Shown here in pieces: positions 131-40,301 of a stretch of 40,301 nt of DNA. The translations under genes were made by a program, and so were the position numbers. The notes beneath the pieces are model-generated. The model saw only the letters and a program-made list of their open reading frames with translations. It searched no databases and was not told the DNA's origin. The stretch covers positions 1-40,301 of the forward strand of contig JABSQZ010000033.1 of the NCBI GenBank assembly GCA_013215505.1, read 5' to 3'. Source of the stretch: Oceanospirillaceae bacterium. GTDB lineage: Bacteria; Pseudomonadota; Gammaproteobacteria; Pseudomonadales; Balneatricaceae. Numbering within the stretch: the stretch's first letter is position 1; the number at the start of each line of letters is the position of its first letter.

Positions 131-610
131 GTTTTTTGATTTAGTTTTCGAATGACAATTCCGGCTATCTGCAATCAACTCTTAAACTGGAGCGAGTTCC
201 CCTGATCATGTTATTTGAGAGGGCTTTCACTAAAAAATGTACATGCACCCGGAATCAGGCCGATCACTACAACAGACAACAAATTTTGAGTTGAATTCCC
301 TCACGCTTAATCTTTTAAACTTCCGACTTACGACACACTACTTCCGACTATCACCACCCTCACACCTAATCTTTTAAAACTTACGACTTCCAACTCGATA
401 CTTCCGACTGATTATTACCACAGAGAAATGCCTTTCTTACTACACGTTATATGCAGTGGTAGTACGGAGTATCTTGCCAGCAGATCTGATTCGCACGGCA
501 CGAGTCATATTAACCTCGCTCAGAGGTCATCACCTCTTAAATAATCCTTAAGTGATAGTTACGTTACTCCCTACCACTATCTTATTGAATGAAAAAGTGA
601 CTGTCCTTTT
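131..610 (+). repeat. Dispersed repeat R, copy A (part to the right of the IS256)
   Basis: This stretch closely matches 14769-15240 (copy D) and, with more divergence, 2601-3060 (copy B). It contains a shared core (131-300), a block of heptamers in the ACTNNNN orientation (about 310-410), and a distal module P (about 436-600) that occurs four times in the window. Copies differ mostly by swapped heptamer units while the flanks are conserved. I see no protein-coding gene. The right border is at about 605-613, where a glycosyltransferase fragment begins. Confidence 0.8.
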
Positions 611-2520: not shown

Positions 2521-2557
2521 CTCTATGCGCTATGCGCTATGCGTGAGGCGTGAGGCG
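2521..2557 (+). repeat. Heptamer array, two unit types joined in phase
   Basis: The units read CTCTATG, CGCTATG, CGCTATG, CGTGAGG, CGTGAGG, then CGT. The 7-bp register is kept across the change from CGCTATG to CGTGAGG. The array abuts the left border of repeat R copy B, just as CGTGAGG/TGTGAGG arrays abut copies C and D. Confidence 0.9.
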
Positions 2558-3060
2558 TTTTAATGGTAAAATCGAAATTAGCTAGGTCAACGGAATTATT
2601 GGATTTTTGATTTAGTTGTCGCTTTTAGATTCCGGGCTATCTGAAATCAACCCTTAAACTGGAGTGAGTTCCCCTGATCAAGTTATTTGAGTGGGCTTTC
2701 ACTAAAAAATTTGCATGCACCCGGAATCAGGCCGATCACTACAACAGACAACAAATTTTGAGTTGAATTCCCTCACGCTTAATCTTTTACACTTCCGACT
2801 TAAGACTCACTACTTCCGACTATACCCTGCCCTTCCCTCACGCATAATCTTTTCAAACTTACGACTTCCGACTCGATACTTCCGACTGGGTATTACCACA
2901 GAAGAAGGCCTTTCTGATTACACGCGATATGCAGTGATAGTAAGGTGAGTCTAGGCAGCAGATCTGCTGCGCACGGGCACGAGGCATATTAACCTCGCTC
3001 AGAGATCATCACCATTAATTAATCTTAATGTGATATTAACGTGCTCGTTTCACTATCTTA
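2558..3060 (+). repeat. Dispersed repeat R, copy B (no IS inside)
   Basis: The most complete uninterrupted copy. The left part (AATGGTAAAATCGAAATTAG onward) matches copies C (from 10295) and D (from 13388). The site occupied by IS256 in copies A and D is empty here, at about 2601-2610 (GGATTTTTGA). A GATTCCGGG/CCCGGAATC inverted pair (about 2629-2637 and 2719-2727) could form a long stem. Heptamers in the ACTNNNN orientation follow at about 2790-2890. The distal module P holds a perfect 16-bp palindrome, GCAGCAGATCTGCTGC, at 2955-2970. A 77-codon open frame starting at 2715 lies wholly inside the repeat and is not counted as a gene. Confidence 0.8.
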
Positions 3061-9685: not shown

Positions 9686-10147
9686 GATTCAGATTGCAGT
9701 TTCAGGGAGTTTTTGCAAGAGATCAGCTTAACGCTGTTCTTCATGTTATGCCTGTTGTTAATCAATACCACCCAGCGAATTTAAGCTACCATCTTAGTGA
9801 TTGTTGCCTCTGAATTATTTCAGGCTGTGTACGGTAGTTTGATGACAATGTTGGGTATTGAATATACTTTTTTCCTTAAGAAAGAGTCTTATATAGGTGT
9901 CGCTACTGGCACCTATATCAATCGCCACCACCTGGCAGGCTACTTAGTCATCTGCTTATCTTTGGGCCTTTGCATAATGATCGCCAGCTGGAAAGGGCTT
10001 ATCGGGCAGATTTTTGAAGCGATACTCAGCCAGTAAGCCATATTGTGTATCTCGTTAGTTATCATGGTTGCCGCCTTAGTTATGACTCACTCGCGCATGG
10101 GCAACAGTGCCTTTTCGGCAGTATGGGTATTATTGGTACCTTGACGA
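9686..10147 (+). pseudogene. O-antigen-ligase-family gene, internal fragment (decayed duplicate)
   Basis: This is a degenerate copy of 34440-34930 in the intact ligase gene of the same window. The best-preserved frame (9797-10036) reads LFQAVYGSLMTMLGIEYTFF, then GVATGTYINRHHLAGYLVI, nearly identical to the intact protein. Both ends of the gene are missing, a short in-frame segment is deleted before the WKGL motif, a premature TAA occurs where the intact gene has Lys (10034-10036), and a frame break follows near MGNS. Homology stops at about 10147, precisely where the heptamer array starts. Confidence 0.88.
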
Positions 10148-10260
10148 TGAGACGTGAGACGTCGGAAGCCGGAAGTCGGAAGTCGGAAGTCGGTAGTCGG
10201 TAGTCGGTAGTCGGTAGTCGGTAGTCGGTAGTCGGTAGTCGGTAGTCGGTAGTCGGAAGT
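10146..10260 (+). repeat. Heptamer array with gradual unit change (16 units)
   Basis: Read in register from 10146 the units are GATGAGA, CGTGAGA, CGTCGGA, AGCCGGA, two of AGTCGGA, nine of AGTCGGT (10188-10250), then AGTCGGA and a partial unit. Neighbouring units differ by one to three bases and the 7-bp phase never breaks. It begins at the broken end of the ligase pseudogene. Confidence 0.95.
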
Positions 10261-10272
10261 TAACTATATTCA

Positions 10273-10380
10273 TGAGGCGTGAGGCGTGAGGCGTTCAATG
10301 GAAAAATAGAAATTAGCTAGGTCAACGGAATTATAGGATTTTTGATTTATTTCTCGCTTGCCAATTCAGGGCTAACTTGT
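10273..10380 (+). repeat. Three CGTGAGG-type heptamers plus dispersed repeat R, copy C (left part only)
   Basis: Three TGAGGCG units (10273-10293) precede TCAATGGAAAAATAGAAATT and the core GCTAGGTCAACGGAATTAT, matching the left part of copies B and D. Similarity ends near 10375, so the right part with ACT-type heptamers and module P is absent. The IS256 target site (GGATTTTTGA) is empty here. Confidence 0.85.
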
Positions 10381-10463
10381 TCCCCCTTACACCTGCCTAA
10401 TAACCTAAGGAGTCAATTCACCAGTGAGTGACGATACCGTCACTAAGCTGTGCTTTACTAGCA

Positions 10464-10511: not shown

Positions 10512-10754
10512 ATGACCACAATATCCGCGACACAAGCCCGTTCCAAACTTTACAGTTTGATAGATGAAACGCAGGCCACCCATAAGCCAATTGTCATTAC
10601 CGGTAAAAGAGGTAATGCCGTGCTGCTCTCTGAGGAAGATTGGACTTCAATTAACGAAACTTTATTTCTGCTTTCCGTCCCCGGAATGAGAGAGTCTATC
10701 CAAGAAGGCTTAAATACCGATCTGGAAGATTGTGAAACGGATTTAGATTGGTAA
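10512..10754 (+). CDS. yefM: YefM/Phd family antitoxin
   Basis: An 80-residue protein of the Phd/YefM antitoxin family. The N-terminal DNA-binding and dimerisation part begins MTTISATQARSKLYSLIDET and continues with PIVITGKRGNAVLLSEEDW, both typical. The acidic C-terminus (NTDLEDCETDLDW) would bind and neutralise the toxin. It lies 5' of the toxin gene with overlapping stop/start (TAATG), the usual antitoxin-first order. It probably represses its own promoter through the palindrome at 10481-10494. The module lies between heptamer arrays on both sides. Confidence 0.92.
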   Translation: MTTISATQARSKLYSLIDETQATHKPIVITGKRGNAVLLSEEDWTSINETLFLLSVPGMRESIQEGLNTDLEDCETDLDW

Positions 10755-11014
10755 TGTGGCAAATTTACTTTGCAAAACAAGCCAAAAAAGATGCTAAAAA
10801 GCTCGCTTCCAGTGGCCTGAAAGATAAAGCAAAAGAGCTATTAGATATTATTGAAGAAAACCCTTTTCGAAATCCCCCTCCGTTTGAAAAATTAGTCGGA
10901 GATCTAGATGGCGCATACTCCAGAAGAATCAACATCCAGCACCGACTCGTATATCAAGTTTTAGAAGAACAACACGCAATAAAAGTACTAAGACTTTGGA
11001 CACATTATGACTAA
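10754..11014 (+). CDS. yoeB: YoeB/Txe family mRNA interferase toxin
   Basis: An 86-residue RelE-superfamily toxin expected to cleave mRNA in the ribosomal A site. Residues matching YoeB active-site positions are visible: Glu45 in PFEKLVGD, Arg64 in IQHRLVYQV, and the C-terminal His84-Tyr85 in LWTHYD. The length is close to E. coli YoeB (84). I chose ATG 10754, which overlaps the antitoxin stop by one base; the TTG at 10748 would add only two residues. The toxin looks intact. In this place it could stabilise the surrounding repeat-rich segment against loss. Confidence 0.92.
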   Translation: MWQIYFAKQAKKDAKKLASSGLKDKAKELLDIIEENPFRNPPPFEKLVGDLDGAYSRRINIQHRLVYQVLEEQHAIKVLRLWTHYD

Positions 11015-11021
11015 TCCGACT

Positions 11022-11080
11022 AGTCGGAAGTCGGAAGTCGGAAGTCGGAAGTCGGAAGTCGGAAGTCGGAAGTCGGAAGT
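11022..11080 (+). repeat. Heptamer array, eight AGTCGGA units
   Basis: Eight identical AGTCGGA units (11022-11077) and a partial one start just 8 bases after the toxin stop codon. The units match the AGTCGGA portion of the array at 10174-10187 on the other side of the toxin-antitoxin module. Confidence 0.95.
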
Positions 11081-11179
11081 CACATGAAAAACCAAGATAC
11101 ATAAATTCAAAGGCTTAGGCCCGAATTTGATCTTTCCGTTGCCCGGGAACTTCCGTCTAATATCTATATCTGTTTTTAA

Positions 11180-11258
11180 CTTACTACTGACGACTCGCTA
11201 CTCACGGCTCTCATTGTCTTTAAACTTCCGACTCGCTACTCGCTACTCGCTACTCAAA
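11180..11258 (-). repeat. Degenerate heptamers, reverse orientation, at the 3' end of manC
   Basis: Reading CGACTCG, CTACTCA and, after a gap, ACTTCCG, ACTCGCT, ACTCGCT, ACTCGCT, ACTCAAA, these are AGTAGCG/AGTCGGA-type units on the minus strand. They lie just downstream of the manC stop (11275) and are arranged convergently with the forward array at 11022-11080. Confidence 0.85.
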
Positions 11259-11274
11259 ACTTGGAGTAGTCGTT

Positions 11275-12813
11275 TCACTCGCGCCCATAGCGATCCTCAA
11301 ACCGAACAATATCGTCTTCCCCAAGATACGACCCCGATTGAACCTCTATCAACTCCAGTGGTATCACCCCTGGATTTTCCAAGGCATGAATAGTACCCAA
11401 CGGTATATAAGTCGATTGATTTTCGGTCAGTAAAATTTCTTTATCACCATTAGTAATCTTGGCAGTCCCAGAAACCACTATCCAGTGCTCTGCACGGTGG
11501 TGATGCATTTGTACTGATAATTTAGCGCCGGGTGCGACGGTAATGTGCTTTACCTGGAACCGCTCACCACTGTCGATAGAATCATACTTACCCCAGGGCC
11601 TGTACACTTCTCGATGAACAGTCGCTTCAGGGCGTCCCTCTTGTTTAAGGGAATTAACGATAGTTTTAACTTGCTGTGCTTTATCTTTGTGGGCAACCAA
11701 TAACGCATCTTTAGTATTAATAATGACTAAGTCTTCTACACCTATAGTAGTGACTAACTTATCTACACTGATCACTAAGCTATTTTTACTGTCGATAGAC
11801 ATCACATCACCGGTAAAGGCATTACCATTTTCGTCCTTATCAGATACTTGCCAAAGCGCAGAAAAGCCACCAATATCATTCCAATGTGCATCCAGCGGTA
11901 CAACAACTACCTGATCGGCATCGTCTGTTTGGTTGTCCGGGCTACACAGCGGTTCCATCACCGCATAATCAATAGACTCATCCGGGCAAGCACTAAAAGC
12001 TTCTACATCAACCCGCACAAAGTCATTATCAACCTGGCAATTACTCATCGACTTTTCACAAGCTGCATAGATATCCGGCCTGAATTGTTTAAGCGCATCT
12101 AAATACCGACTCGCCTTAAACATAAACATCCCGCTGTTCCAGTAGTATTCACCAGAATCAACATAGCTTTGTGCTGTAACTAAATCAGGCTTTTCAACGA
12201 ATTGGTTAACACTATATACAACTGAATCCACTGTACCTTCAGCAGCATCAGACTGACCACAACTTACAGCAGCCCCCCGACGAACATAGCCATAACCGGT
12301 CTCAGGCCCATCAGCCACAATCCCAAAAGTAACCATCTTCCCATCCAGCGCAAACCGATGCGCCGTATTCACAGCCTTCTGAAACGCCTCAACATCCCCA
12401 ATCACATGATCCGCCGCCAACACCAACAAAACCGGATCATCACCTTCTTCTACTGATCCCGTTTTGCCCTTCGCTTGACCGTTCTTGTCACTCGCTACTC
12501 GCGACTCACTACTCAATACTGCTCTTAACGCAGCGAGCGCTATGGCCGGCGCAGTATTCCTACCCACAGGCTCCAAAAATATCCCACTATGCTCAACCCC
12601 TAACTGCCTAATCTGCTCTGCCGCAATAAACCGATGTTCCTCACCACAAATCAACATACAAGGGCTGTGATCTAAACCTTTCAACCTATTAATCGTTTGT
12701 TGCAACATTGTTTGCTCGCCATTAAGGGCAAGAAACTGCTTAGGATAATTACCCCGTGAAAGCGGCCATAAACGCGTACCTGAACCACCGGCCATAATTA
12801 CAGGTAAAATCAT
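11275..12813 (-). CDS. manC: Mannose-1-phosphate guanylyltransferase / mannose-6-phosphate isomerase
   Basis: A 512-residue bifunctional ManC/AlgA-type enzyme that makes GDP-mannose from mannose 1-phosphate and GTP. The N-terminal pyrophosphorylase signature [19 protein letters not shown] lies at residues 10-27; [22 protein letters not shown] and FVEKPD follow. The C-terminal cupin part ([27 protein letters not shown]) is the isomerase-like domain. Usual length is about 470-480. The excess is mainly an insert at about residues 99-123 ([12 protein letters not shown] and following) partly encoded by heptamer repeats, in a loop before the [12 protein letters not shown] strand. The frame stays open. 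GDP-mannose would feed the AlgD-type dehydrogenase at 18139-19452. A stump of a second manC lies at 16774-16911. Confidence 0.95.
12487..12521 (-). repeat. Five heptamers inside the manC coding region
   Basis: On the coding strand the units are AGTATTG, AGTAGTG, AGTCGCG, AGTAGCG, AGTGACA. They are translated within [12 protein letters not shown] of ManC, in a segment absent from typical ManC proteins. The frame used avoids the in-frame TAG that another frame would give. Confidence 0.88.
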
Positions 12814-13316: not shown

Positions 13317-13338
13317 ATCACCTTTTAAGATTAAAAGG

Positions 13339-13387
13339 CGTGAGGCGTGAGGTGTGAGGTGTGAGGTGTGAGGTGTGAGGTGTGAGG
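13339..13387 (+). repeat. Heptamer array, CGTGAGG changing to TGTGAGG
   Basis: Two CGTGAGG units are followed in phase by five TGTGAGG units, then TGTGTCA, and directly by the left part of repeat R copy D. It separates the transposase remnant from R. Confidence 0.95.
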
Positions 13388-13440
13388 TGTGTCAATGGTA
13401 AAATCAAGATTAGCTAGGTCAACGGATTTATTGGTTTTTG

Positions 13441-14768
13441 GAGGCTGTAAAAGTAATTGTGTAACTGCTCATAATCTATAACCTATGCAAAAGGTATAAT
13501 TATGAGCAACTTAATGGACTACAAAAAACTCCAAGCGATGGCCGAAGAATTGGCCAAAGACCTAAAAACCCCTGAAGACCTTAGCCAGTTAAGCGCATTC
13601 CTCACTAAATTGACGGTAGAAGCTGCTTTAAAAGGCGAGATGAATCATCACCTTGGCTACGATAAAAATGCCTCTAAAGGCCATCATAGCGGTAATAGTC
13701 GTAATGGTTCTTCCTCAAAAACTCTAAAAGGTAGTCATGGCGAGATTGAGCTGCAAACACCTAGAGATCGCAACGGTACTTTTGAGCCGCAGATAGTTAA
13801 AAAAGGCCAGTCTCGTATCACTGGCATGGACGACCAAATATTATGCCTGTATGCGAAAGGTATGAGCACAAGAGACATTGTGGCGTCATTTCAAGAAATG
13901 TACGGTGCTGGTATCTCCGCTGGATTAGTGTCACAAGTCACCAATTCAGTCATTGAAAAAGTCATTGAATGGCAGAACCGTCCACTCGATGCGGTTTACC
14001 CCATCGTTTATATGGACTGCATCGTCTTGAAAATACGCCAGGATAAGCAGGTTATAAACAAAGCGATTTACCTTGTTCTGGGGGTGAATATAGAAGGTCA
14101 CAAAGAGCTGCTAGGCATGTGGATCTCCGAAAATGAAGGGGCTAAGTTCTGGCTTTCTGTACTCACTGAACTTCAAAATCGCGGTGTTAAACATCTACTC
14201 ATAGCTTGTGTAGATGGATTGAAAGGCTTCCCTGAAGCGATCAGTGCTACATTCCCAAAGGCTAAGATTCAACTCTGTATCGTCCATATGGTGCGTCATT
14301 CGTTGAAGTTTGTCCCTTGGAAAGACTACAAAAAAGTGACTGCTGACTTGAAGTTGATTTACCAGTCAGTTACCGAAGAAGAAGGAAGATTAGAGCTCGA
14401 GAGGTTTACTGCGAAGTGGGGTGATAAATACCCTCAAATAAGCAAGTCCTGGAACTCAAATTGGCATAATTTAATTACCATTTTCTCTTACCCAGAAAGC
14501 ATACGCAAAGTAATCTACACCACAAATGCCATCGAATCTCTAAACAGCGTTATCCGTAAATCTGTTAAAACACGTAAGGTCTTCCCAAGCAATGATGCAG
14601 CTCTGAAAGTCATTTATCTGGCGACAGAATCAGCTTCAAAAAAGTGGACTATGCCGATTAGGGACTGGAAACCAGCGCTAAACAGATTTATGATTGAGTT
14701 CGAAGATGAGCTAACTCCTTATGTTTAAATAACTAAACGAGCAGTTACACAGAATGGTTTACATCCTC
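13441..14768 (+). mobile_element. Complete IS256-family insertion sequence (1328 bp)
   Basis: Terminal inverted repeats of 30 bp are at 13441-13470 (GAGGCTGTAAAAG...) and 14739-14768. They share the inner GTGTAACTGCTC / GAGCAGTTACAC and the outer GAGG/CCTC bases. The flanking 8-bp target duplications are GGTTTTTG (13433-13440) and GTTTTTTG (14769-14776), with one difference consistent with loss of a T in the run. One transposase gene fills the element. It was inserted inside repeat R. Confidence 0.93.
13502..14728 (+). CDS. IS256-family (mutator-type) transposase
   Basis: A 408-residue, apparently intact DDE transposase of the IS256/mutator family. The N-terminal region (LTKLTVEAALKGEMNHHLGY) and the GNSRNGSSSKTLKGSHGEI segment before the catalytic domain are diagnostic. 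Candidate catalytic residues are Asp172 (VYMDCIVLK), Asp238 (ACVDGLKGF) and Glu345 (TTNAIESLN), with CIVHMVRHSLKFV between the second Asp and the Glu. Length is normal (about 400). It catalyses copying of the element through a circular intermediate, as known for the family. The start ATG lies about 30 bases inside the left inverted repeat. Confidence 0.96.
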   Translation: MSNLMDYKKLQAMAEELAKDLKTPEDLSQLSAFLTKLTVEAALKGEMNHHLGYDKNASKGHHSGNSRNGSSSKTLKGSHGEIELQTPRDRNGTFEPQIVKKGQSRITGMDDQILCLYAKGMSTRDIVASFQEMYGAGISAGLVSQVTNSVIEKVIEWQNRPLDAVYPIVYMDCIVLKIRQDKQVINKAIYLVLGVNIEGHKELLGMWISENEGAKFWLSVLTELQNRGVKHLLIACVDGLKGFPEAISATFPKAKIQLCIVHMVRHSLKFVPWKDYKKVTADLKLIYQSVTEEEGRLELERFTAKWGDKYPQISKSWNSNWHNLITIFSYPESIRKVIYTTNAIESLNSVIRKSVKTRKVFPSNDAALKVIYLATESASKKWTMPIRDWKPALNRFMIEFEDELTPYV

Positions 14769-15248
14769 GTTTTTTGATTTAGTTTTCGAATGACAATTCC
14801 GGCTATCTGCAATCAACTCTTAAACTGGAGCGAGTTCCCCTGATCATGTTATTTGAGAGGGCTTTCACTAAAAAATGTACATGCACCCGGAATCAGGCCG
14901 ATCACTACAACAGACAACAAATTTTGAGTTGAATTCCCTCACGCTTAATCTTTTAAACTTCCGACTTACGACTCACTACTTCCGACTATCCCCGCCCTCA
15001 AGCCTAATCTTTTAAAACTTACGACTTCAGACTTACGACTGCCGACTGAGAATTACCACAGAGAAAGACCTTTCTTACTACACGTGATATGCAATGGTAG
15101 TAAGGAGTGTCTTGGCAGCAGATCTGATGCGCACGGGCACGAGTCATATTAACCTGGTCAGATGTCATCACCTCTTGAATAATCCTTAAGTGATAGTTAC
15201 GTTACTCCCTACCACTATCTTATTGAATGAAAAAGTGACTGATGGAAT

Positions 15249-31470: not shown

Positions 31471-31702
31471 AAGTATTTAGTCATGTTATAAAAACTAATT
31501 TTCTGAATATAATAACGATACCAGTCAAAAAAAATTCTCCATCTCTTTTTGTAATTTACCTTGTAATTTAATAACAATATTCTATTCTAATGCTTTAGGT
31601 CGTGGCCCAAAAACTGCCAAAACTTTAATTATAAATACCATTCTATATTTTTGTATCCTCTGCATGCAGAAAGACAAGCCAGTGGTGTGGCTGGTTTTGT
31701 AT

Positions 31703-31743
31703 TCTACTTACTACTTACTACTTACTACTTACTACTTACTACT
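31703..31743 (-). repeat. Heptamer array directly after the WbaP-like stop codon
   Basis: On the minus strand the units read AGTAGTA, repeated nearly six times, starting one base after the TAA of the 31745-33229 gene. It belongs to the same AGTNNNN family and lies between the initiating transferase gene and the rest of cluster 2. Confidence 0.95.
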
Positions 31744-31744
31744 G

Positions 31745-33229
31745 TTAGAAAACATCCTTACTAACCAAACTCAGTGGCGTTTTCACCAATATCTTAAAAT
31801 CTTCCCAAAGCGACCAGTGATTAATATATTGCATATCAAACTCAACCCGCTTCTGCATCTTCTCAATTGTCTCAGTTTCACCCCTGCAGCCACTAATCTG
31901 CGCTAAACCGGTAATACCCGGCTTAATCCTATGCCTGGCCATATAAGTACTGATTTTCTCAGAATAGAAATCATTATGGGCAACGGCATGTGGCCTTGGT
32001 CCAACCAGTGACATACTGCCCTGCAGTACATTAAATAATTGCGGTAGCTCATCAATTGAAGTTCTACGGATAAAGGCGCCAACTTTAGTTATACGGTCGT
32101 CACCTTTCGTGGCTTGCTTAACATCCGTATCATCATGCATTCGCATGCTACGGAATTTCCAGATAAAGATTTCTACACCATCATAGCCATGTCTTTTTTG
32201 CTTAAAGATCACTGGGCCAGGAGACGTTAACTTCACCGCTAGCGCTATAGCTATCAATAAGGGCGCAAGTACAAACAACATAGTGGCAGCGATTATCTTA
32301 TCTAATACGTGTTTAATCCGTATCATCACTCTCGATGCCGTTATAGGACTTTCATTTAACGACAGCAGTGGCATACCTGCCACTTCACGGATCGAATGAT
32401 TCATCAACTTCCAGTCAGTAATGTCTAATACCCAAATAACATCCACGTGGCAATCAAGTAGCTGGTCATTCAGTGCTTCTACCCTGGCGGCGTATTTAAG
32501 CGGCAGTGATATATAGATACGTTTGATTTGATGCTGTTTAATAATGTTTTCAATGTTTTGCATCTCGCCTAACAATGGGAATGTTAACTGCTTACTAATA
32601 GTCTCGGGTATATCAGAATCATAGCCATTGACCATGCCAATCACTTTATCGGGTATCCAATAATTGTTGTGAATTTTCTGCGAGAAGGACCGTGCTGTTC
32701 TACCCAGGCCAATAATCAGGGTGTTAATAGGTTTGGTATGGTTTTTACGATACATAGAAACAGCAAAATAATTTAGGCGCAGTAGCGGTACTTGCAGTAA
32801 ACCCACCGATAGAAACCAGGTAATTATTATTTCACGGGAATATAACTCGCTGGTTTTAGTCAAAAAAGCCAATACTATCAATACACCCACAGTTGCCGCC
32901 CAGGCGATACTGATCCTAAAGGCCATGGTATAGAACTTATCCGTCTGCTTATAAACACCCGAAAGTGGGTACACAACCAAGACAGTGAAGACAGCGATTA
33001 CTAATAACAGTCGATACAGACTCGACATATCCTGCATTTTGAATAATGTGCAAATAACCAATGCTAAAGCAACTACCGCGCTATTACCCAGTACCTGACA
33101 TACTAGCAATAGTGATTCATGTTTTCTTAAAAGTCGGCGTGGCCGTGAATGGCCAAAAATGTTAGCTTGGGGATCGGTTGCAATGGCGGGGGGTACAGAA
33201 AAATCACTTTCAGATTCATGAATTGTCAC
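31745..33229 (-). CDS. Undecaprenyl-phosphate glucose phosphotransferase (WcaJ/WbaP-type)
   Basis: A 494-residue polyprenyl glycosylphosphotransferase that starts repeat-unit synthesis by moving sugar 1-phosphate, usually glucose, from UDP-sugar to undecaprenyl phosphate. Several N-terminal membrane segments precede a nucleotide-binding-like domain (TLIIGLGRTARSFSQKI), then a re-entrant membrane helix and the C-terminal Bac_transf catalytic domain: FKQKRHGYDGVEIFIWKFRS, RRTSIDELPQLFNVLQGSMS, LVGPRPHA and GITGLAQISGCRGET. Length fits the WcaJ type. It is the only initiating transferase in the window. It is the first gene of cluster 2, divergent from the secreted protein gene. Galactose specificity cannot be excluded. 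Confidence 0.95.
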   Translation of the reverse strand: MTIHESESDFSVPPAIATDPQANIFGHSRPRRLLRKHESLLLVCQVLGNSAVVALALVICTLFKMQDMSSLYRLLLVIAVFTVLVVYPLSGVYKQTDKFYTMAFRISIAWAATVGVLIVLAFLTKTSELYSREIIITWFLSVGLLQVPLLRLNYFAVSMYRKNHTKPINTLIIGLGRTARSFSQKIHNNYWIPDKVIGMVNGYDSDIPETISKQLTFPLLGEMQNIENIIKQHQIKRIYISLPLKYAARVEALNDQLLDCHVDVIWVLDITDWKLMNHSIREVAGMPLLSLNESPITASRVMIRIKHVLDKIIAATMLFVLAPLLIAIALAVKLTSPGPVIFKQKRHGYDGVEIFIWKFRSMRMHDDTDVKQATKGDDRITKVGAFIRRTSIDELPQLFNVLQGSMSLVGPRPHAVAHNDFYSEKISTYMARHRIKPGITGLAQISGCRGETETIEKMQKRVEFDMQYINHWSLWEDFKILVKTPLSLVSKDVF

Positions 33230-34086: not shown

Positions 34087-34165
34087 GCAATATAAAATTT
34101 TGTCCAGGCCCCGTGCTTTCTAGATTCATCTCAGACCATATTCTTTGCGACTAATAATAACAACT

Positions 34166-35524
34166 ATGGATACAAAGACTAAAGCAGCAGACAGTTATAT
34201 ATTTTACTTCTTCTTAGGCCTATTAGTTTGGATGCCAATGCCATTAGGCAGCAACCGAACCTGGTCAGAGATGATGATGGTTATTGTTATTGCACTGTTG
34301 GGTATCAGCTGGTCAATGCTATATCTTAGCGGCAAGGTAAAATTAACCCACTGCTTTAAAAAAGCAGCAGTCGCCACTGTTTTATTAATTCTCGCGCAAT
34401 TTTTTATCAGCTACCAGCTATACAACAACCTCAGTATTGATGCTAACTCCAGTTTCAGAGAATTATTACAAGGCATCAGCTTAACGCTGTTCTTTATGCT
34501 ATGCCTGTTACTGATTAACAGCAGCCAACGGATAAAGACCACCATTTTAGTGATTATTGCCTCTGGGTTGTTCCAGGCTGTATACGGTAGTTTGATGACC
34601 ATGTCAGGTATTGAATATACCTTTTTTCTAAAAAAGGAAACTTATTTTGGCGTAGCCACCGGCACCTTTATTAACCGTAACCACCTGGCGGGCTACTTAG
34701 TTATTTGTTTATCGCTGGGGCTTGGTATGATGATAGCCAGCCTGAAAGCCAATACCAACAGCTGGAAAGGTCTTGTCAGGCAGATATTTCAAGCCATACT
34801 CAGCCAAAAGGCTATATTGCGTATCTCATTAGTTATCATGGTTGCCGCGTTAGTGATGACTCACTCGCGCATGGGCAACAGTTCCTTTTTCGCCAGCATG
34901 GGAATTATTGGCACCTTGGCGATACTGCTAAAAAAACGCTCGGTCGGCTCAACCATAATCTTGTTATTGAGCTTGTTGATTATCGATGTGGCAGTGGTTG
35001 GTACATTTTTTGGCGTTGATAAAGTAATTGAAAGATTAGAAAAAACCAGCACCGAGTCCGAAAGCCGCGACGAAGTGAATTTGTACAGTATTAAGATTAT
35101 CGAAGATAATTTATTAAACGGCACAGGCGCTGGTACTTTCTACAATTCCTTCCCGGCAGTTCGCGAAAAAGAAATTGGCTTTCTTTTTTACGACCATGCC
35201 CACAATGACTACATAGAGTTTTTGACTGAACGCGGCGTTATTGGTATAGCACCATTAGTACTGTTAGTTATTATAACCTTCCTGGTTGCCTTAACCGCCC
35301 TGTGGAAAAGACAAAAAGCACTAATGCGCGGCTGCGCCTTCGGCTGTTTAATGTCGATGCTGGCGATGGGAATACATGCGACGGTAGATTTTAATCTGCA
35401 GATACCTGCAAATGCGGCGACTTTTATGTTAGTGCTGGCGCTGGGGTGGATTGGGATGTTTCATCGGCCGCGGCGCGGGCGCAGTGGGAAGTCGGAAGTG
35501 GGAAGACTGAAGCTAAAGGACTAA
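34166..35524 (+). CDS. O-antigen-ligase family membrane protein
   Basis: A 452-residue polytopic protein of the O-antigen ligase (Wzy_C) superfamily. Key segments are MPMPLGSNRTWSEMMMV at the start, GTFINRNHLAGYLVICLSLG, MTHSRMGNSSFFASMG, and the periplasmic loop FYDHAHNDYIEFLTERGVIG, which carries the conserved HxHxD/E-like pattern. It may transfer finished polymer to lipid A or a protein, or act as a polymerase. I chose ATG 34166; the TTG at 34145 lacks support. The last residues (SGKSEVGRLKLKD) are encoded by heptamer repeats and are probably not ancestral. A decayed duplicate of its middle part lies at 9686-10147. Confidence 0.87.
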   Translation: MDTKTKAADSYIFYFFLGLLVWMPMPLGSNRTWSEMMMVIVIALLGISWSMLYLSGKVKLTHCFKKAAVATVLLILAQFFISYQLYNNLSIDANSSFRELLQGISLTLFFMLCLLLINSSQRIKTTILVIIASGLFQAVYGSLMTMSGIEYTFFLKKETYFGVATGTFINRNHLAGYLVICLSLGLGMMIASLKANTNSWKGLVRQIFQAILSQKAILRISLVIMVAALVMTHSRMGNSSFFASMGIIGTLAILLKKRSVGSTIILLLSLLIIDVAVVGTFFGVDKVIERLEKTSTESESRDEVNLYSIKIIEDNLLNGTGAGTFYNSFPAVREKEIGFLFYDHAHNDYIEFLTERGVIGIAPLVLLVIITFLVALTALWKRQKALMRGCAFGCLMSMLAMGIHATVDFNLQIPANAATFMLVLALGWIGMFHRPRRGRSGKSEVGRLKLKD

Positions 35525-36013: not shown

Positions 36014-36098
36014 TAACTTACGTCTTCCAACTAAAGACTTCCGACTTTTTTAGTCTTTAGCTTCCAACTTCCGACTTCCTACTTCCTACTTCCGACTG
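36014..36098 (-). repeat. Heptamer-derived block at the epimerase 3' end (right flank of a possible cassette)
   Basis: On the minus strand the units read AGTCGGA, AGTAGGA, AGTAGGA, AGTCGGA, AGTTGGA, AGCTAAA, then GACTAAA and a decayed tail with AGTCGGAAGTCTTTAG. The block supplies the last codons and the stop of the epimerase gene and mirrors 35482-35562. Confidence 0.85.
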
Positions 36099-37082
36099 TC
36101 TGTTGTATGAGATATACCAATCGACGAAGTTCTGCATGCCCGTATAGATATCAGTACTCGGCTTAAAACCTATTACATCCACCAACTGATGGATATCCGC
36201 AAAAGTCCGTTTTACATCGCCCGGCTGCATTGGCAACTGGATTTTCTCCGCCGTTTTCCCGCAGGCTTTCTCGGTGGCATCAATAAACTCGGAGAGTTCT
36301 ATCGGTTGGTTGTTACCAATGTTGTAAATATTGTAGGGGGCTGTTGAGCCTGACTCTGGGGAGTTGTTTGCTGTGGGTATTACATCCTGGATTCTGATTA
36401 CACCTTCGACAATATCATCGATGTAAGTGAAATCGCGCTGCATTTCACCCTGGTTAAAAACCTTGATTGGGCGGTCATTGATAATCGCATCAGTGAATAA
36501 GTATGGTGCCATATCTGGTCTGCCCCAAGGGCCATAGACGGTGAAGAATCTAAGGCCGGTGGTGGGTATGTTGTATAAATGGGCATAGCTGTGGGCCATT
36601 AGCTCATTGGACTTTTTTGTGGCCGCGTACAGTGATACTGGGTGATCCACATTATCTGATTCAGAAAACGGGACCTTTTTGTTGGCACCATAGACCGAAC
36701 TTGATGATGCATAGACTAAGTGTTGTACTTTGTTATGTCTACAGCCCTCCAGGATAGCTGCAAAGCCTACTAAGTTAGAATCAATGTAGGCCATAGGGTT
36801 TTCGATGGAGTAGCGGACACCCGCTTGTGCGGCTAAATGAATCACCCGCTCAAACTGTTGTTCTTTAAATAAACCGGCGATGGCATCACGATCTGCGAGA
36901 TCCATTTTAACAAAGCTAAAGTTATCTAAATGCTGAATGCGCTTTAGTCGGGCCAGTTTCAGCTTTGGGTCGTAATAATCGTTCAGGTTATCCAGGCCTA
37001 TCACTTGATGCCCTTGATCACATAAGCGTTCGGCAACAAAATTGCCGATAAAGCCCGCTGCGCCTGTGACTAAAAATTTCAT
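36057..37082 (-). CDS. UDP-glucuronate 4-epimerase-like NAD-dependent epimerase
   Basis: A 341-residue extended SDR enzyme. The N-terminal NAD motif [14 protein letters not shown] lies at 7-20, and [17 protein letters not shown] is typical of UDP-glucuronate 4-epimerases. [15 protein letters not shown] follows. The active-site Tyr and Lys are in [17 protein letters not shown], and [14 protein letters not shown] matches the family. It would interconvert UDP-GlcA and UDP-GalA, using the product of the overlapping upstream ugd (4-base ATGA overlap). The C-terminal tail [15 protein letters not shown] is encoded by heptamer repeats and is not part of the usual fold. No membrane segment is seen, so it is cytoplasmic. 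Confidence 0.93.
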
Positions 37083-38446
37083 TGATAGCCACCATTGGTT
37101 TTTACTACACGGCCAATGCTGTAATATTTAAAACCTTTTTCTTGCATGCGCGCCGGATCAAACATATTTCGACCATCAAAGATAAGCGCATTCTTCAGCT
37201 CTGTTTTGATCAAATCAAAATCTGGGGCGCGGAAGCTTTTCCACTCAGTACATATCACTAATGCATCGGCGTTTTTAAGGGCCGACTCTTTGGTACCCAT
37301 CAACGCCAAATCGCCATTAACACCATAGATGCGTTGTGTTTCTTCCATCGCTTCCGGGTCATAGGCCTGTACTGTAGCGCCCGCTTCCCACAGCGCTTCC
37401 ATCAATACCCGGCTAGGAGCTTCACGCATATCATCTGTGTTAGGTTTAAACGCCAACCCCCAAATCGCGAACACTTTGCCTTTAAGGTTTTCGCCAAAGT
37501 GTTGGCTGATGTATTCAAATAATTTGGTTTTTTGACGGTAATTTACCGCCTCTACCGCTTTTAGTATCTCTGACTCATAACCTATCGCCTCTGTAGTACG
37601 CACTAATGCTTGTACGTCCTTAGGGAAACATGAGCCACCATAGCCGCAACCTGGGTAAATAAACTGATAACCGATACGCGGATCAGAACCTATACCATGC
37701 CGCACTGCCTCAATATCGGCACCTACGCGCTCGGCGATATTAGCCATTTCATTCATAAAACTGATCTTCGTCGCCAACATACAGTTAGCCGCATATTTGG
37801 TTAGCTCGGCACTGCGGATATCCATAACAATGATCTTTTCATGGTTACGGTTAAAAGGTGCGTATAGTTCACGCATTAGCTCTTCAGCGCTGGCAGAGTC
37901 TGTACCTATGATGATGCGATCGGGCTTTTGGCAATCGGCAACTGCCGAACCCTCTTTTAAGAACTCAGGGTTTGAGACGACGGTAAACGAGTCGTGAGTC
38001 GCGAGTAGCGAGTCGTGAGACTTGCGTTGGGCTAGGATTGATTTTACTTTGGCGGTTACTTTGTCGGCGGTGCCGACGGGGACGGTGGATTTGTTTATGA
38101 TGACCTTGTTGGTAGTCATATAAGTTGCGATGGTTTCGGCGACTTTTAGTACGTATTTTAGGTCTGCTGATCCGTCTTCATCCGGGGGGGTGCCTACGGC
38201 GATAAACTGTAACTGACCAAATTCAACCCCTTGCTTGGCATCGGTGGTAAAAGTTAAACGACCCTGGTTGTAGTTATCTTGTACTAAGTTGCTTAAGCCC
38301 GGCTCATAGATAGGGATAATGCCGTCTTTAAGTTTATCAATTTTATCCTGATCAATATCAACACAACAGACTTCATGCCCAGCATCCGCCAAAACCGCAG
38401 CCTGCACTAAACCAACATAACCAATTCCGTAGAATGTAATTTTCAA
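37079..38446 (-). CDS. ugd: UDP-glucose 6-dehydrogenase
   Basis: A 455-residue UDP-glucose dehydrogenase producing UDP-glucuronate with two NAD. The Rossmann motif [18 protein letters not shown] opens the protein; [39 protein letters not shown] and the catalytic Cys273 in [15 protein letters not shown] follow. I chose TTG 38446, giving the family start [11 protein letters not shown] with AAGGA 7 bases upstream; the ATG at 38488 would add 14 residues ([14 protein letters not shown]) encoded partly by heptamer repeats. An unusual insert, [14 protein letters not shown] (about residues 140-153), is also heptamer-encoded and precedes the SNPEF motif. It overlaps the downstream epimerase. Confidence 0.94.
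37988..38023 (+). repeat. Five heptamers inside the ugd coding region
   Basis: On the plus strand (antisense to ugd) the units read AGTCGTG, AGTCGCG, AGTAGCG, AGTCGTG, AGACTTG. Translated on the minus strand they give [12 protein letters not shown]. In manC the same family is read in the opposite strand sense, so both orientations are tolerated as coding sequence. Confidence 0.9.
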
Positions 38447-38470: not shown

Positions 38471-38748
38471 TTCGAGTAGCGAGTCCATTCAAACCAAATC
38501 AGGTGTGATTTACAAGCACTGCCTGTGGCTTAATCCCTTTATTACTTACTCTAAAACCTTAAACTGACTACTTTGTGATTTAACTCGTTACTTGCGACTC
38601 GATACTCGATACTCGATACTCTGTTTTATAACTCGCTACTGGCGACTCAATACTCATTACTTGATCTTCTAACTCGCTACTGACGACTCGCTACTGACGA
38701 CTCGCTACTCAATACTTTGTCCTATAACACGCTACTCAATACTGCCCT
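38471..38748 (-). repeat. Degenerate heptamer field between ugd and the VanZ-like gene
   Basis: A short forward piece (GAGTAGCGAGTCC, 38473-38485) precedes ugd. From about 38580, reverse units such as ACTCGAT (three in a row), ACTCGCT, ACTGGCG, ACTCAAT, ACTCATT, ACTGACG and ACTCGCT recur with short breaks (TTTTATA, TTGATCTTCTA). The last units provide the stop codon of the VanZ-like gene. Nothing else is seen in this 240-base gap. Confidence 0.85.
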
Positions 38749-39121
38749 TCAATACTAATCTCGCCCGCCTAAACTTCTGGCCCCCTACCCAAACCAGCAT
38801 CGCAATCGCCACGCCTATCACATTCGCAACCGCATCCTCAACACTAGACAACCGACTCGCTTGTACTAATCCTTGAGTGTACTCCATTGCCATAGCGACT
38901 GTGGTAATTAATGGCCAGTAGATGTGACCGTTCAGCTTGGGCATCGCCAGGCGGCCGCTGAAGGCCAGTCCGGCAAAGGCCAGTAGATGGGCAATTTTGT
39001 CGGATTGCTCAAACACTTTTTGCGGGGGCATCGCTCTAAAAACTCCCCAACTCACAACTGCAATGCAAATGGCAAACAGGCTAATTGCCAATATTCGGCT
39101 AATTCGCATCTTTATAGCCAT
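38732..39121 (-). CDS. VanZ-like family membrane protein
   Basis: A 129-residue membrane protein with about four hydrophobic helices and the VanZ-like signature: SDKIAHLLAFAGLAFSGRLA, WPLITTVAMAMEYTQGLVQ and the acidic loop SSVEDAVANVIGVAIAML. The role of VanZ-like proteins outside vancomycin operons is unclear; many sit beside polysaccharide genes. The start is ATG 39121 or, with a more typical N-terminus (MRISRILA), ATG 39109; both overlap the end of galE. The C-terminal GSIE and the TAG stop are contributed by a heptamer (GAGTAGC), so the original end may have been replaced. Confidence 0.85.
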   Translation of the reverse strand: MAIKMRISRILAISLFAICIAVVSWGVFRAMPPQKVFEQSDKIAHLLAFAGLAFSGRLAMPKLNGHIYWPLITTVAMAMEYTQGLVQASRLSSVEDAVANVIGVAIAMLVWVGGQKFRRARLVLKGSIE

Positions 39122-40169: not shown

Positions 40170-40301
40170 AAGTGCGAGTAGCGAGTCGTAAGTAGCGAGT
40201 CGTCAGTCTTTAGGGCATAAAAATGCGAGTAGCGAGTAGCGAGTAGCGAGTAGCGAGTAGCGAGTAGCGAGTAGCGAGTAGCGAGTAGCGAGTAGCGAGT
40301 A
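40170..40301 (+). repeat. Heptamer array upstream of galE, running off the window
   Basis: Mixed units (GTGCGAGTAGCGAGTCGTA, then AGTAGCG, AGTCGTC, AGTCTTT) are followed after a short spacer by more than ten uninterrupted AGTAGCG units from 40228 to the last base. The true length is unknown because the window ends inside it. Confidence 0.95.

Follow-up and report, generated by a model that had tools for sequence, protein, structure and literature searches.

The 7-bp tandem repeats of the Oceanospirillaceae genome studied here (G000) are, in the reading we prefer and to which we give about an even chance of being right, lineage-specific heptad arrays in which an AGY triplet (AGT, sometimes AGC) is fixed every 7 nt, which are mostly intergenic and which often run from a stop codon on the sense strand. 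According to this reading, they would evolve by duplication of whole units and by point change, AGY being kept by a predicted reader with a 7-nt pitch. Most unit types have AGT in common, and their other four bases are variable. What calls for explanation is this constancy of AGT together with the placement at gene ends, and neither was part of an earlier sequence-only reading of this DNA, which had drawn attention to units that change without losing phase.

Heptad arrays in the window and in the genome

The window, i.e. the whole stretch of 40,301 bp that was analysed, is contig 29 (positions 1-40301) of a genome of 5.73 Mb in 52 contigs, which is 98% complete. At a threshold of 15 matches in 21, it contains 14 period-7 blocks in both orientations, in agreement with the earlier reading, which had counted at least ten heptamer arrays in both orientations. 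A stricter scan (17 matches in 21, periods 2 to 30) returned solely period 7 and its multiples, plus a trace at period 27. The series of units which had been described at 10146-10260 was also recovered, the same units being read in an array that extends to 10264. The features of the window are the following:

298..409, minus strand: repeated region copy A, with two AGT-type arrays of 5 units each; TGT in one unit
2523..2558, plus strand: CTATGCG three times, with an in-phase passage to TGAGGCG
2787..2887, minus strand: repeated region copy B, with two AGT arrays of 5 units each
10146..10264, plus strand: flagged array made of GATGAGA, CGTGAGA, CGTCGGA, AGCCGGA, AGTCGGA (twice), AGTCGGT (nine times), AGTCGGA and AGTTAAC
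10273..10294, plus strand: TGAGGCG array (minor, TGA-type family)
11022..11084, plus strand: AGTCGGA eight times, then AGTCACA
11175..11261, minus strand: AGT arrays 13 bp past the stop of ManC (gene on the minus strand); in the sense of the AGT strand TTTG, AGCG (three times), CGGA, TTAA, then AGCG, CGTC, AGTA, TAAA
12486..12520, minus strand: heterogeneous AGT array of 5 units within the ManC reading frame, translated SSESRVASD
13336..13391, plus strand: TGAGGCG/TGAGGTG array upstream of a Mutator-family (IS256-like) transposase gene
14953..15047, minus strand: repeated region copy C, with two AGT arrays of 5 units each, downstream of the transposase gene 13502-14728
31702..31743, minus strand: AGTAGTA five times, then AGTAGAA, 1 bp past the stop of the sugar-transferase gene 31745-33229 (minus strand)
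35483..35512, plus strand: AGT array forming the C-terminal codons of the O-antigen ligase gene 34145-35524
36063..36097, minus strand: translated AGT array at the 3' end of the epimerase gene 36057-37082
37990..38017, plus strand: AGT array within the UDP-sugar dehydrogenase frame, antisense
38579..38716, minus strand: three heterogeneous AGT modules (7, 5 and 6 units), 15 bp past the stop of 38732-39121 (minus strand)
40177..40211, plus strand: heterogeneous AGT array of 5 units (AGCG, CGTA, AGCG, CGTC, CTTT)
40225..40301, plus strand: GCGAGTA eleven times, exactly 77 bp, reaching the window end

The flagged array caps a partial copy of an O-antigen ligase gene (9697-10148). This copy is 78% identical to the O-antigen ligase gene region 34450-34923 and the similarity stops at the start of the array. 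The window also contains a small ORF (about 10512-10755), whose translation we take, by eye, to resemble a YefM-type antitoxin. The ManC and UDP-sugar dehydrogenase frames are unbroken by their internal arrays (12486-12520 and 37990-38017), which add residues such as SSESRVASD. The three TGAGGYG arrays are followed by a common flank (2562-2642, 10297-10377 and 13392-13442, with 84-86% identity to 10295-10420), and it looks as if array and flank had been copied as one; this flank has no match in the other stretches searched. In the window, no Rfam family was detected at the gathering threshold and no tRNA gene was found. In stretch L097 (7544-7879), two heterogeneous AGT arrays adjoin tRNA-gene-like sequences.

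The sample used for statistics combines the window with 800 kb of G000 contigs 1, 3 and 34 (840 kb). Period 7 accounts for 58 blocks in it (at least four of them being A/T-rich low-complexity runs), against 1 after local shuffling and 0 to 8 for each of the other periods from 4 to 22 except 14 and 21, a count whose density per Mb is biased by the choice of some of the 40 sampled stretches at listed matches. As in heptanucleotide SSRs, tandem units of 7 bp are enriched over other periods. Genome-wide, the pattern (AGTN4)x4-AGT gives 443 + 606 overlapping matches and the reversed pattern 22 + 41. An assembly artefact could be suspected where array matches of 75-77 bp stand at the first base of contigs C9, C27, C28 and C46 of G000 and where an array of 77 bp closes the window. 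These contig ends probably reflect the k-mer limit of the assembly, and the lengths of long arrays may still be wrong. As the source of the arrays themselves we hold an artefact to be next to impossible, because many arrays shorter than 77 bp lie within contigs, arrays occur at orthologous sites in other assemblies and the one-contig relative G008 carries them.

Unit changes were counted in 46 AGT-registered arrays. Among 344 adjacent unit pairs, 213 are identical and 131 differ, 62 of them by one base. The 92 changes from one AGT unit to another concern a single base in 53% of cases, vs 30% in random unit pairs, two bases in 25% and three or four bases in about 22%. Neighbouring AGT chains that are at most 60 bp apart are in phase in 6 of 23 pairs and out of phase in 17; the six in-phase pairs are read as single arrays with altered units in between. 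The earlier claim that register is kept where unit types meet is therefore correct inside uninterrupted arrays but fails across interruptions: phase is held solely inside uninterrupted arrays and there is no long-range phase. Since units are gained and lost whole, phase inside arrays is kept, and in-phase replacement, for which the sequence-only reading knew of no mechanism, requires no special one, as whole-unit gain and loss suffices and phase is lost at interruptions.

Under our preferred reading, arrays would lengthen and homogenise via slippage-like tandem duplication and loss of whole units, phase would be kept passively by this gain and loss, and point change would then modify the four free bases. 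Both the homogeneous blocks and the 53% of single-step changes are compatible with duplication plus mutation. Such blocks, and single-base steps from one unit to the next, also speak for plain replication slippage of heptamers with neutral point mutation, AGT being then a founder effect of few starting units. Moreover, the long SSRs of many bacteria are most often heptamers, for which the contact length of the polymerase has been proposed as the cause (PMC4679880, PMC4692102). We nevertheless consider this explanation unlikely, because AGT is kept in heterogeneous arrays, AGT columns are spared in orthologous arrays and arrays are in sense orientation at stop codons, three points that are documented below.

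The AGT triplet within arrays and between species

AGT/ACT is present in 47 of the 58 block consensus units. When all 64 trinucleotides were scored at periods 5 to 10, without conditioning on AGT, AGT/ACT at period 7 gave 15 heterogeneous chains among 61 chains of at least four units, despite the frequency of identical neighbours reported above. The period-7 runner-up, AAG/CTT, gave three, which overlap AAGT. At periods 5, 6, 8, 9 and 10, AAA/TTT came first with at most six heterogeneous chains and every other trinucleotide had at most two. In the modules at 38579-38716, neighbouring units are mostly unlike and AGT still recurs every 7 bp. Within AGT-registered arrays, changes per column amount to 7 for A, 11 for G and 27 for T, against 72, 36, 53 and 44 for the free columns, and in the three region copies of the window (A, B and C) 1 of 30 AGT columns is variable, against 10 of 40 free columns.

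In the single-contig genome of G008, AGC serves as the anchor of heterogeneous chains (9 of 15), although AGCT is self-complementary and allows such chains to be read on both strands; in G023 the anchor is AGT (3 of 8 chains). Positions 180001-220000 of G008 contig 1 (L146-L147) hold 26 of the 29 period-7 blocks of 14 sampled 20-kb stretches, L146-L147 having been picked for listed AGT matches. The units of this region are mainly of the GTNATTN and AGC types, often as facing pairs, and some of its ORFs look like polysaccharide genes.

Matches to the AGT pattern were obtained in all six congeners searched (27 to 284 matches) vs 14 of 50 genomes outside the genus, and G000 has the most. Stretches orthologous to loci L085, L087, L089, L090, L097 and L145 of G000 were compared in G003, and for four of these loci (L087, L089, L090 and L145) in G006 too. 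In these species, many sites still carry an array, with changed units. Among the 23 AGT chains of G000 for which relatives provide an anchor, six are anchored on both sides. Four sites can be aligned unit by unit: A (L090:11610) and B (L089:10598, relatives at contig ends) in three species, C (L089:12336) and D (L090:5352) between G000 and G003. Taken together, variable columns number 0 of 72 for AGT and 34 of 96 for the free positions (p=3e-10; 9/20 at A, 10/20 at B, 14/32 at C and 1/24 at D), where 0/72 is favourably selected, A and B having been recognised via AGT chains in each species, and where D barely varies. The G000-G003 pair alone gives 0/72 and 31/96. This count leaves aside the sites with unequal unit number (L087:9033 and L090:18566 in G003 and G006, L097:16896 in G003 and L089:12336 in G006), those at contig ends that have an anchor on a single side (locus B was kept) and those with replaced or missing arrays. 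Neighbouring G000 and G003 stretches yielded no further anchored AGT chain of at least four units.

Some sites have changed more deeply. AGT has become AGC in G003 at L087:9033, L085:12192-12292 and L145:8256-8409. G003 lacks the AGT array at L085:17475 and L097:16701, G006 lacks it at locus D, and at L085:627 G003 retains two AGT units. No array is present at loci B and C in G001, G002, G004 and G005, which are more distant congeners. Finally, at L145:10927, an AGT array of 17 units in G000 has a TGAGGYG array in its place in G003. This in-place replacement argues for exchange between arrays, in which ectopic recombination and segmental copying, partly with IS elements, would swap blocks of units, as do the AGT-to-AGT changes of two bases and of three or four bases and, in the window, the three copies of one array-bearing region and the common flanks of the TGAGGYG arrays. 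However, at loci A and B the unit number is constant and corresponding units are alike, as under point change, and we judge this explanation improbable.

Placement at gene ends and candidate machinery

Gene ends were taken from codon-bias ORF calling, 73% of the sample being coding. For 21 of the 50 merged AGT arrays of at least four units, a same-sense stop is located at -40 to 20 bp of the 5' end, and the mirror arrangement is found for none; the other 29 have no abutting same-sense stop. With unmerged chains of at least three units, the figures are 25 of 74 for a same-sense stop and 1 of 74 for the mirror, 6 of 74 being near a same-sense start. In eight convergent gaps, the stop of the sense gene is the nearer one for 10 arrays out of 10. 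Intergenic arrays lie at a same-sense stop in 17 of 33 cases, vs 3.3 expected when both placement and orientation are randomised, or 4.4 when orientation is preserved (P 0.0005 in either case, the lowest value attainable with 2000 draws). Because stop codons occur on the AGT strand of many units, reading frames can end at arrays; stop-free units give 6 same-sense and 0 mirror cases of 21, and stop-bearing units 17 and 1 of 39. At locus C, the stop is at the identical codon or at most one codon away in six congeners (tblastn), and the array there therefore begins at an old stop. Ordinary replication slippage alone does not predict this sense placement after gene ends. Integron attC sites also follow stop codons; this reading was set aside because the array sites sit in syntenic blocks common to congeners.

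In our preferred reading, AGY would be retained through a reader with a 7-nt pitch, and the best candidate for this putative reader is an oligomeric RNA- or ssDNA-binding protein on the ribosome-free transcript after the stop codon. Sense orientation and the start at the stop codon could also result from co-transcriptional R-loops, which would drive expansion in the ribosome-free stretch past the stop, with a G-rich non-template strand, no function and AGT as a mutational preference. On the AGT strand, G outnumbers C in each of the four commonest units, which may point the same way, but R-loops leave the 7 bp unexplained and give no account of the constancy of AGT beside changing bases in orthologous arrays; we rate them as rather doubtful.

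The sequence-only reading had favoured templated or stepwise addition of units and had proposed, as a check, to look for a reverse transcriptase, telomerase-like or HUH gene common to the genomes that carry arrays. Its stepwise part is borne out by the in-phase changes, more often of a single base than in random pairs; templating is not, and neither of the two families searched, RVT_1 and HUH Y1, is common to these genomes. In favour of templating, the AGT+4 grammar resembles an alignment-plus-template design, in which AGT would be the alignment site, and four of the six congeners (G002, G004, G005 and G006) have RVT_1 (PF00078). However, RVT_1 has no match in G000, G001 and G003, and of the 19 genomes outside the genus (among 50) that have one, 12 are without any AGT-pattern match. 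Telomerase-like templating is thus not supported, as RVT_1 was not found in G000 and two other array-carrying congeners, and we regard addition by a reverse transcriptase or telomerase-like enzyme as very improbable. HUH Y1 transposases (PF01797) were likewise rejected as an explanation: G000 has two, G001, G003 and G006 have none, and G042 combines 49 of them with five AGT matches.

An RNA element of conserved secondary structure was also considered and rejected, since the seven stretches folded revealed no common fold among orthologues, locus A adopting three different folds in three species. Fold z-scores are -3.2, -1.0 and -2.6 at locus A, -3.1 at locus B in G000, -0.4 and -1.2 at locus C and +1.0 for the flagged array; locus A (in G000 and G006) and locus B (in G000) exceed their shuffles owing to pairing with facing sequence. 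Terminator-like hairpins occur within 120 nt after 3 of 20 stop-abutting arrays (one of the 21 was dropped for N), with 0.25 expected in shuffles, and within 140 nt at 32 of 149 convergent gene ends. The arrays were therefore not identified as intrinsic terminators, the flagged array folding no better than shuffles and terminators being not enriched after arrays (3/20 vs 32/149).

Known heptamer repeats and a possible spacing code

Heptamer repeats are already known in bacteria, for instance three tandem heptanucleotides of Calothrix, called STRR. An excess of heptamers in bacteria has been published, as have the TAACTGA repeats of Beggiatoaceae, the mixed heptamers of Microcystis and, for Xanthomonas and Nostoc, GGGANTN-type heptads that vary between relatives (PMC4679880, PMC4692102). 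The arrays described here share with bacterial heptanucleotide SSRs a 7-bp unit, many loci and a mostly intergenic location, whereas the fixed AGY with four free bases and the sense, stop-abutting placement are absent from the descriptions of those SSRs in the available parts of these papers.

The TAACTGA repeats of marine Beggiatoaceae (PMC4679880) are also intergenic heptamer sets oriented relative to genes, and their unit contains ACT. However, a single unit predominates in them, related heptamers seldom form repeats and the sets are mainly upstream of start codons, whereas many related units and a preference for gene ends are found here: TAACTGA (AGTTATC on the opposite strand) does not figure among our 58 consensus units, and same-sense stops prevail over starts (25 vs 6 of 74 chains). 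The GGGAATC and GGGGA(C/T)T repeats of Xanthomonas and Nostoc (PMC4692102) are heterogeneous heptads with fixed and free positions. Their sites are mostly common to two species with unlike length and sequence, which resembles our arrays. They have a GGG core of the G-quadruplex type, as in GGGNATC, where each unit contains GGG, whereas GGG occurs in 2 of 58 consensus units here. No description of AGT-anchored, gene-end-oriented heptad arrays was found in the open-licence PubMed Central literature, and this form looks new.

TRAP-type RNA sites, in which triplets are repeated with short spacers, offer an analogy of working: a short triplet stands at fixed spacing with free spacers, although the triplet is another one and the spacers are shorter than in the arrays presented here. 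We put forward, as a tentative proposal which is unlikely to hold, the existence of a spacing code. AGU at an exact 7-nt pitch in the 3' untranslated part of the transcript would be read by a putative oligomeric protein, with anchors specific to lineages (AGT in this genus, AGC in G008), and bacterial heptamer repeats would be binding arrays and not passive products of slippage.

For the dominance of 7 bp among the long SSRs of many bacteria, the suggested cause is polymerase slippage at the contact length (PMC4679880, PMC4692102). A triplet that is spared at a 7-nt pitch and oriented at stop codons provides testable alternatives, namely a binding array or transcription-coupled expansion, and the orthologous arrays of the sister species constitute a ready evolutionary test.
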